Under the pieces are notes generated by a model that saw nothing but the letters and a program-made list of their open reading frames with translations, was not told where the DNA came from and made no database searches. The position numbers and the translations under genes are program-made. A DNA stretch of 43,229 bases from Candidatus Omnitrophota bacterium (GTDB taxonomy: Bacteria > Omnitrophota > Gorgyraeia > Gygaellales > Profunditerraquicolaceae): positions 1 through 43,229 of the forward strand of contig JAUYBI010000029.1 in assembly GCA_030693145.1 (NCBI GenBank), written 5' to 3'. Position 1 is the stretch's first letter, and each line of letters opens with the position of its first letter. Positions 16,975 through 30,000 of this stretch are shown one piece after another.

Positions 16975-17018
16975 AAACATGGGGACGGTTCTATTTTTAT
17001 AGAACCGTCCCCATGTTT
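16975..17018. terminator. Palindromic repeat AAACATGGGGACGGTTCTAT-TTTT-ATAGAACCGTCCCCATGTTT, likely terminator of groEL
   Basis: 20 bp perfect arms, 4-nt loop; T-run follows. Shares GGGGACGGTTCT...AGAACCGTCCCC with 39176-39209. Confidence 0.8.
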
Positions 17019-17022
17019 TTAA

Positions 17023-17187
17023 GACACTATAATAAACTCTGTTGACTTTTATTAATTATTAACAATAGTAGGGTGGGTTTAAACCCACCCTACTATTGTT
17101 AATAAGCCGTGTAGGGATGTTCCTGCCTACCGGCAGGCAGGTAAACCTCCCTTACTGTTGAAAGTCAACAAGGCTTGTTACATTGTC
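17023..17187. repeat. Composite palindromic element, copy A (MITE-like)
   Basis: GACACTATAATAAACTCTGTTGACTTT...AAAGTCAACAAGGCTTGTTACATTGTC terminal inverted arms; contains a 50 bp perfect palindrome (17056-17105) and a second core carrying an inserted palindrome (17122-17141). Confidence 0.85.
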
Positions 17188-23100: not shown

Positions 23101-23560
23101 CAAACAAGAAAAAATGGCGATATTAAAGTTAGAAGACTTAAGCGGGGCAGTAGAAATACTGGTTTTTCCGCGCGCATTCGCTAAAATAAGCTCCCATATC
23201 CAAGCCAATACCATTGTGCATATCCGCGGAGTGCTTGACCTTAAGGAAGAAACGCCCAAAATTATCGCCGAAGACCTTTTCCCATTTGAAGAAATTTACA
23301 AGCTCATCACCGCCATAAACATCAACTTGTCCGGGATAAGGGAGAATATCTTTGAATCCTTAAAAACTCTACTCGGGGCGCATCGCGGAAGAGTCCCTGT
23401 ATATTTACGCCTGGATACCTGCCTGTCCGGCAGGCAGGCGCCCGCTAAATCCCGGGTACAGTTAATTGTCGGTGAAGGATTGTATGTTGAACCTAATGAA
23501 CAACTTATCCAGGATCTGGATGAACTCTTAGGCCCGGAACACTTATCCCTGGTGATATAA
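20105..23560 (+). CDS. dnaE: DNA polymerase III subunit alpha
   Basis: FVHLHLHTQYSLLDGA PHP domain, GPGRGSAAGSLVSYLLGITDLNP, LPDIDIDF, FNKSHSTAYALISYRTAYLKANYP. Confidence 0.98.
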   Translation: MPHSEFVHLHLHTQYSLLDGACRIPEILAIAKSFKMDSLAITDHGSMFGAIDFYLEAQKTGIKPIIGCEVYVAPQSRLEKKSGGIEDAANHLILLARNEEGYHNLMKLVSIGYLEGFYYRPRIDKEVLAQHAAGLIGLSACLKGEIPCLILQKRFNDAIKAADTYQNILGKGNFYLEIQGNSIPEQKIVNTGMIKISGELGIPLVATNDVHYPTKDRAAAHEALLCIQTQTTLDDPKHMRFQTEEFYFTSPEEMKKLFSECPEALKNTLEIASRCNLELDFTQMHLPKYSPPGGKNKEEFLLELCEKGLTEKNLEHNPEAQKRLDHELKIIRHMGFISYFLIVWDFIAYAKSQSIPVGPGRGSAAGSLVSYLLGITDLNPLKYGLLFERFLNPERMGLPDIDIDFCYERRQEVIDYVTNKYGQENVAQIITFGTMQARAVIRDVGRVMAIPYAEVDRIAKLIPAELEMTLKKALESEPELNNLYKNNPQITKLISIALSLEGLNRHASVHAAGVIIADKPLSNYMPVFKTGDDQITTGYSMGTLEKIGLLKVDFLGLRTLTVIDETLKLIKKIRGIQIDFEKLPLDDQNTYKLLASSHTIGIFQVESSGMRDLLKKLIPERFEDLIALLALYRPGPIGSGMLDDFMKRKHGIIPIKYEHPKLESILKETYGIMVYQEQIMQIASVLAGFSLAQADILRKAMGKKIPEVMEKERNNFLSGCVKNGIKESTAGKIFDLIEYFSGYGFNKSHSTAYALISYRTAYLKANYPVEFMTALLTSERDNTDKIVEYVNESLRMGLKVQPPDINESEALFKVADESTIRFGLLAIKNVGRGAAESIVRQREKLKFKSLEDLCQRIDLRLANRKVLESLIKCGALDYFGVGRAKMFASLDIILEGAQKIQKEKSSGQLSFFDQTLKNNGFGKTTNNLIDCQEWPEPQLLAFEKDVLGFYVSGHPLARYAHQLKRFVSCSTANLHEHKDQDIIKIVGLIVKIKHTVTRVKQEKMAILKLEDLSGAVEILVFPRAFAKISSHIQANTIVHIRGVLDLKEETPKIIAEDLFPFEEIYKLITAININLSGIRENIFESLKTLLGAHRGRVPVYLRLDTCLSGRQAPAKSRVQLIVGEGLYVEPNEQLIQDLDELLGPEHLSLVI
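23418..23438. repeat. Palindrome CCTGCCTGTCCGGCAGGCAGG inside dnaE
   Basis: 8 bp arms; near-identical to intergenic CCTGCCTACCGGCAGGCAGG at 17122-17141; translates as TCLSGRQ in a divergent C-terminal linker. Confidence 0.8.
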
Positions 23561-23625: not shown

Positions 23626-23729
23626 AGTAGGGTGGGTTTAAACCCACCCTACTGAAAGTCGGCAGGGTTCTTGACAACGTAGGGTTTAAACCCACCCTAC
23701 TGAAAGTCGGCAGGGTTCTTGACAACGTA
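23626..23729. repeat. Composite palindromic element, copy B, with a 48 bp tandem duplication
   Basis: AGTAGGGTGGGTTTAAACCCACCCTACT at 23626-23653; the unit gggtttaaacccaccctactgaaagtcggcagggttcttgacaacgta occurs at 23634-23681 and 23682-23729. Confidence 0.9.
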
Positions 23730-29860: not shown

Positions 29861-30000
29861 GTGTAACAAACCTTGTTGACTTTTTACAGTAGGGGAGGTT
29901 TAAACCTCCCCTACAGCTTATTAACAATAGTAGGGTGGGTTTAAACCCACCCTACTGTAATTGATAATTAATAAAAGTCAGCGGAGTTTGTTTTAATGTC
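29861..30000. repeat. Composite palindromic element, copy C, carrying two different palindrome cores
   Basis: GTAGGGGAGGTTTAAACCTCCCCTAC (29889-29914) and AGTAGGGTGGGTTTAAACCCACCCTACT (29929-29956) flanked by GTGTAACAAACCTTGTTGACTTTTTA and AAAAGTCAGCGGAGTTTGTTTTAATGTC. Confidence 0.9.

Follow-up and report, generated by a model that had tools for sequence, protein, structure and literature searches.

A 20-bp palindrome inserted inside another repeated palindrome in an Omnitrophota genome, and a loose base preference at its insertion sites

How does one palindrome come to lie in the middle of another, and does such nesting imply that the inserted one recognises cruciforms or hairpins? The question is raised by a locus on contig C47 of the genome (1.8 Mb in 75 contigs; G000) of an uncultured Omnitrophota bacterium; this contig, 43,229 nucleotides long, is the window analysed here. 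Between groEL and the IMPDH gene lies a two-core palindromic repeat element, MITE/REP-like in character (17023-17187, + strand), with the groEL terminator on one side and the IMPDH promoter on the other. The element ends in imperfect terminal inverted repeats, GACA...TGTC, with 27-nt arms (17023-17049 and 17161-17187) that are 78% complementary, and as DNA it folds as a whole at -42.7 kcal/mol (z -9.9). Both of its cores are of the type GTAGGGnnGGTTTAAACCnnCCCTAC. The first, GTAGGGTGGGTTTAAACCCACCCTAC (17068-17093, unstranded), is intact, and a perfect 50-bp palindrome (17056-17105) is centred on it.

The second core is interrupted by a palindrome of exactly 20 bp, CCTGCCTACCGGCAGGCAGG (17122-17141, + strand), hereafter CC20, present here as an A variant with one A.C mismatch in its dyad. 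The preliminary description had read this core as GTAGGGATGTT-[CCTGCCTACCGGCAGGCAGG]-TAAACCTCCCTTAC (17111-17155), a palindrome inside a palindrome, and both the sequence and the uninterrupted paralogues bear this out: the left arm GTAGGGATGTT (17111-17121, + strand) and the right arm TAAACCTCCCTTAC (17142-17155, + strand) align with an uninterrupted core. The further claim that the insert sits at the exact centre holds for the middle of the core, but not to the base, as the junction left by removing the insert, GTT|TAAAC, misses the exact dyad of GTTTAAAC by 1 bp. Apart from CC20, the second core already lacks one base and has one mismatch. It still folds round its insert; in RNA folds the core stem is kept and CC20, whose own hairpin reaches -11.2 to -11.8 kcal/mol as RNA, is stacked on top. 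Judging from shuffled window sequence, the CC20 pattern is not expected by chance, and about 21 copies with at most three mismatches occur in the 1.8-Mb genome, against 0 for a reversed-pattern control. These and the other counts in the same genome are pattern searches and, where matches were many, the places given are those among the matches listed. The insertion of a 20-bp palindrome inside another repeated palindrome is thus real and confirmed.

In the closest relative found (L017), whose IMPDH is 96% identical, the groEL-IMPDH spacer keeps the promoter and an orthologue of the terminator-like GGGGACGGTTCT hairpin that lies 3' of groEL in the window (16975-17018, + strand), and the entire element is missing. 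The element is therefore a recent arrival, and because the orthologous locus lacks it altogether, paralogues were used for comparison of the insert. When these were aligned end to end with the element, CC20 was absent from an uninterrupted two-core paralogue within the window ('copy C', 29889-29955, - strand) and from another two-core element, L175, and present in a further copy, L252. Four GTAGGG cores of G000 are split by CC20-type palindromes, namely those of the window, L015 (contig C71), L016 (C25) and L252 (C38), and in all four the split falls at GTT|TAAAC or its mirror GTTTA|AAC. The filled L016 and the empty L115 match over about 115 bases apart from a single 20-bp stretch at GGTTTA|AACC, and target duplication is absent. 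Together with the dnaE gene compared with its congeners and the tRNA paralogues in L199 and L224 (see below), this exact filled/empty pair justifies the term 'mobile palindrome' used in the preliminary description. For 22 copies, 177 cores and three central positions, and on the assumption that only 8-20% of the genome is open to CC20 copies, a Poisson model predicts 0.03-0.08 central hits. Four were seen (p ≤ 2e-6), and two independent hits, the minimum if interrupted cores were copied, would give p ≤ 0.003. Such copying is possible, and fewer than four insertions may lie behind the four interrupted cores, since three of them share the orientation GGTAGGCAGG|AAC.

G000 has 177 intact GTAGGG cores; five congeners have 60, 27, 15, 9 and 7, and the rest of the 58 relatives 0-5. 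All 177 start with GTAG, yet this motif is paired inside the full palindrome, and cores lie 0.35 to ~1.3 kb from two Y1 genes. Several cores (L121:1501, L132:1585, L006:1453, L007:1453, L143:1501) are flanked, on both sides or on one, by arms of other hairpins, GGGGACGGTTCT...AGAACCGTCCCC and AATAAGGGTC...GACCCTTATT, so that CC20 is not alone in being nested. At 23634-23729 the window holds an exact tandem duplication of a 48-bp unit that includes half a GTAGGG core, and partial-core tandem copies recur in the genome at L130, L137, L139 and L142. Near its start the window also carries two copies, 34 bp apart, of the direct repeat AAAAACAGTGCACTTTTAA(A/T)TTG (73-129), and contigs C1 and C17 have a string resembling it, GTGCACTTTTAAAAAATCGGTAACA, close to their starts (L097, L132).

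A CCTGCC-type palindrome had also been described, correctly, as occurring independently inside dnaE, and comparison with empty congeners reveals a precise, in-frame insertion there. This CC20-type palindrome, CCTGCCTGTCCGGCAGGCAGG (23418-23438, + strand), adds the seven residues CLSGRQA between LDT and PAKS, the empty site being GGATA|CGCCC, and the reading frame is kept because the insert is 21 bp long. In about 14 congeners the protein reads LDT|PAKS, or nearly so, with nothing inserted, and in others this position is taken up by diverged or doubled inserts. Beyond this genome, the same 20-mer is present in 35 of the 58 related genomes, and exact CC20 occurs with diverse flanks in 41 IMG/VR stretches, whereas a control palindrome matched in composition gave 0 and a second control 2. 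In two of these stretches a tRNA-Met-like gene carries CC20 in its variable loop, as judged by eye. No paper with the exact 20-mer was found in the literature.

CC20 copies and their flanks were gathered from 35+ related genomes, giving 151 distinct sites, or 97 after removal of similar contexts. The logo of the flanks consists of T at -2 and G/C at -1 only. T at -2, which is A at +2 when seen from the other side, occupies 54% of sides as against about 28% (p = 4e-14), and G is rare at -2. This preference is loose, since T(-2) and A(+2) occur together in just 21.6% of sites, as compared with 28.7% if independent; the two sides being uncoupled, we rejected the idea that the flanking T/A is the end of a longer palindrome. 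In both core types, TNNA is found at offsets 12, 13 and 14 of 26 only, which are the central positions. Base preference alone could therefore suffice to make an insertion in a core central. Flanking direct repeats of 2-7 bp were not in excess at CC20 sites, indicating no target-site duplication. A Shine-Dalgarno motif followed by a start codon is straddled (AAG|GAGG) by 19 of the 151 copies (12.6%, against 1.3% of control points, p = 2e-13), and the bias of CC20 towards 5' leaders is strong. Its sites are mostly extragenic, an open frame of at least 420 nt covering 39 of 88 sites as compared with 258 of 352 points 300-380 bp away. In one genome (G020), a leader hairpin CACCCCGCGC...GCGCGGGTG lies directly 5' of the Shine-Dalgarno motif of five genes (L228, L229, L231, L232, L233), and each copy of it carries CC20 at the identical spot in its 3' arm. 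This shared hairpin is a possible repeated leader RNA; Rfam did not match it at the leader loci tested.

Any structural signal is far weaker than either the base preference or the straddling of Shine-Dalgarno motifs. According to the preliminary description, the palindrome would target cruciform tips or hairpin loops, and enrichment at palindrome centres should reveal this. When CC20 was removed in silico and inverted repeats were scored about the junction (cut-off ≥5), 7 of the 151 junctions (4.6%) lay at inverted-repeat centres, compared with 2.3% of distant points and 5.4% of points 8-40 bp away. The full set thus gave no enrichment over near points, and a weak residual persisted in the reduced set (5 of 97 against 1.6%, p = 0.02). 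Minimum-energy folds of the 151 copies revealed no enrichment of junctions in hairpin loops either (24.8%, against 28.0% far and 26.2% near). Since loops are not enriched over controls, nor inverted-repeat centres over near points, structural targeting is not the rule, and as a general model it is largely refuted here. It would account for the four core-centre copies in G000, for a few clear insertions at hairpin tips (L262, CCCCACACTTC|CGTGTGGGG; L283; L260 and L295), for the copies in tRNA D-loops and in the variable loops from IMG/VR, and for the residual of the reduced set, but many copies lie in hairpin arms (GCGCG|GGGTG, GGGGACG|GTTCT), Shine-Dalgarno motifs or AT-rich direct repeats, and we regard guidance by structure as unlikely.

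The interrupted cores might instead go back to a single ancestral insertion, the split core having then been copied by transposition of the element or by recombination between palindromic arms. An unusual GTGTAGGG linker common to the window and L015 is consistent with such descent, as is the like orientation of insert relative to core in three of the four copies; however, L016 belongs to a different element subtype and has the CC20-free twin L115, otherwise identical, and the inserts differ in sequence as well as in offset (GTT|TAAAC versus GTTTA|AAC), so that we hold this scenario to be plausible but lean against it. We doubt still more that CC20 is kept as a functional part, its longer hairpin serving as a terminator, an mRNA stabiliser or a protein site: its stable fold on both strands and its 5'-leader bias would suit such a role, but the same sequence occurs in tRNA genes, in dnaE and in many unrelated contexts, and the sister genome does without the entire element at the groEL-IMPDH locus. 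An artefact of assembly or binning, for which a 75-contig assembly with palindromic repeats might give grounds, is highly improbable given copies inside long contigs and the recurrence of the same 20-mer, with differing flanks, in related genomes and IMG/VR stretches alike.

CC20 also lies in tRNA D-loops at six loci, just 5' of the 3' half of the D-stem, and among 20 CC20 loci submitted to Rfam tRNA was the sole family matched. At L199 and L224, an intact tRNA paralogue adjoins the CC20-bearing copy and represents the empty site. In four Omnitrophota genomes, a tRNA 5' half with CC20 in its D-loop is followed directly by a small GIY-YIG frame (about 95 aa). Loci of this recurring unit are L198, L258, L306, L240 and L349, four from Omnitrophota and one from IMG/VR, the latter recognised by eye as a D-loop CC20 followed by a GIY-YIG-like frame. 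Across the 58 genomes, CC20 and GIY-YIG counts are correlated when kinship is ignored (rho 0.46, p = 0.0003). CC20 could accordingly be imagined as a cosmopolitan 20-bp selfish palindrome, mobilised at TN|NA sites by small GIY-YIG endonucleases that travel with tRNA genes and tolerated by folding out of the transcript, a proposal that we put forward as a long shot. Under the GIY-YIG proposal, Shine-Dalgarno sites, tRNA D-loops and in-frame protein sites would survive CC20 because it folds out of the transcript. At L382 (G000, C25:45906), a GIY-YIG gene follows a tRNA-Pro-like 5' half carrying a different palindrome, TCCGCCATTAAGGCGTTGGCGG, which is repeated downstream near an intact tRNA-like copy; at L224, the broken tRNA-Ser copy with CC20 in its D-loop has a second, different palindrome in its anticodon loop, and the intact tRNA-Ser lies just 3' of it.

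Taken together, we consider it probable that CC20 is a very small (20-21 bp), dispersed, mobile hairpin repeat of an SDR/REP-like type, whose central position in the core most likely stems from local base preference, cruciform recognition not being needed. CC20 entered the middle of one core, without target duplication, in a larger palindromic element itself recently mobile, and the local preference for T at -2 and A at +2 would have put it at the core centre. Tolerance may then act as a filter, in that a self-contained hairpin would fold out and let the interrupted structure and the flanking signals re-form around it. An enzyme or an RNA intermediate would move CC20. A Y1/RAYT transposase was considered for this part and rejected: G000 has four Y1 genes, with no CC20 within their 2-3 kb loci. 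Counts of Y1 transposases and of CC20 in the 58 genomes showed no correlation (rho 0.21, p = 0.11).

Among known systems, the nearest kind to CC20 appears to be the SDRs of Nostoc, and by analogy CC20 would work like one of them. SDR1-8 of Nostoc and relatives, which Elhai et al. are said to have described in 2008, are reportedly about 20-27 nt long, hairpin-forming and mobile, with no gene of their own, and reportedly occur inside mini-transposons and in nested insertions, with heptamer repeats and HIP1 as host contexts. CC20 resembles the SDRs in its small size, its hairpin, its dispersal, its exact filled/empty sites and its nesting in other repeats, here core centres, GGGGACGGTTCT hairpins and leader hairpins. 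It differs from them in its unrelated sequence, in the phyla concerned and in that these SDR host contexts are absent from its sites. Rickettsia palindromic elements are longer than CC20, RPE-1 measuring about 100 bp or more, and fungal mitochondria harbour mobile GC clusters and double-hairpin elements, short GC-rich palindromic inserts that are also found in RNA genes. Unlike CC20, these fungal elements are organellar and have a different sequence and target. The Rickettsia palindromic elements (RPE) are palindromic inserts tolerated in frame in genes (PMC3733652), as CC20 is in dnaE, but are confined to Rickettsiales. The SDR paper of Elhai et al. (2008) is cited in PMC3116915.

CC20 shares with GTAG/CGTC-tagged REPs a repeated, mostly extragenic palindrome in the range of 20-40 bp (PMC3733652). 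In contrast to REPs, its flank logo includes no unpaired GTAG/CGTC end tag, its copy number is modest and it has no RAYT (Y1) link here; in contrast to IS and MITEs, it makes no target-site duplication of fixed length. As it failed the tests for the REP tag and for a fixed target duplication, CC20 was filed neither as a REP nor as a MITE. The GTAGGG core may come closer to a REP than CC20 does, and differs in being a full palindrome in which GTAG is paired. Insertion sequences aimed specifically at REPs have been described (PMC1525189) and are likewise mobile elements within a repeated palindrome, but they are full IS with a transposase, whereas CC20 has no coding capacity. REPs located within other palindromes are reported from A. 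variabilis, T. roseum and H. neapolitanus, and R. conorii has a REP inside DnaE (PMC3733652). Palindromes inside palindromes are therefore already known, and the nesting of CC20 has precedent.

If our preferred reading is true, CC20 shows how nested palindromes can form without cruciform targeting. It would then rank among the smallest mobile DNA units known, with a range that covers a whole phylum; from its sites in viral-labelled contigs, other phyla may be concerned too. It would enter essential genes, tRNA genes and ribosome-binding sites while doing no evident harm, and would make a long-standing question testable: by what means tiny repeats that carry no gene spread, and whether they are guided by structure or by base preference.
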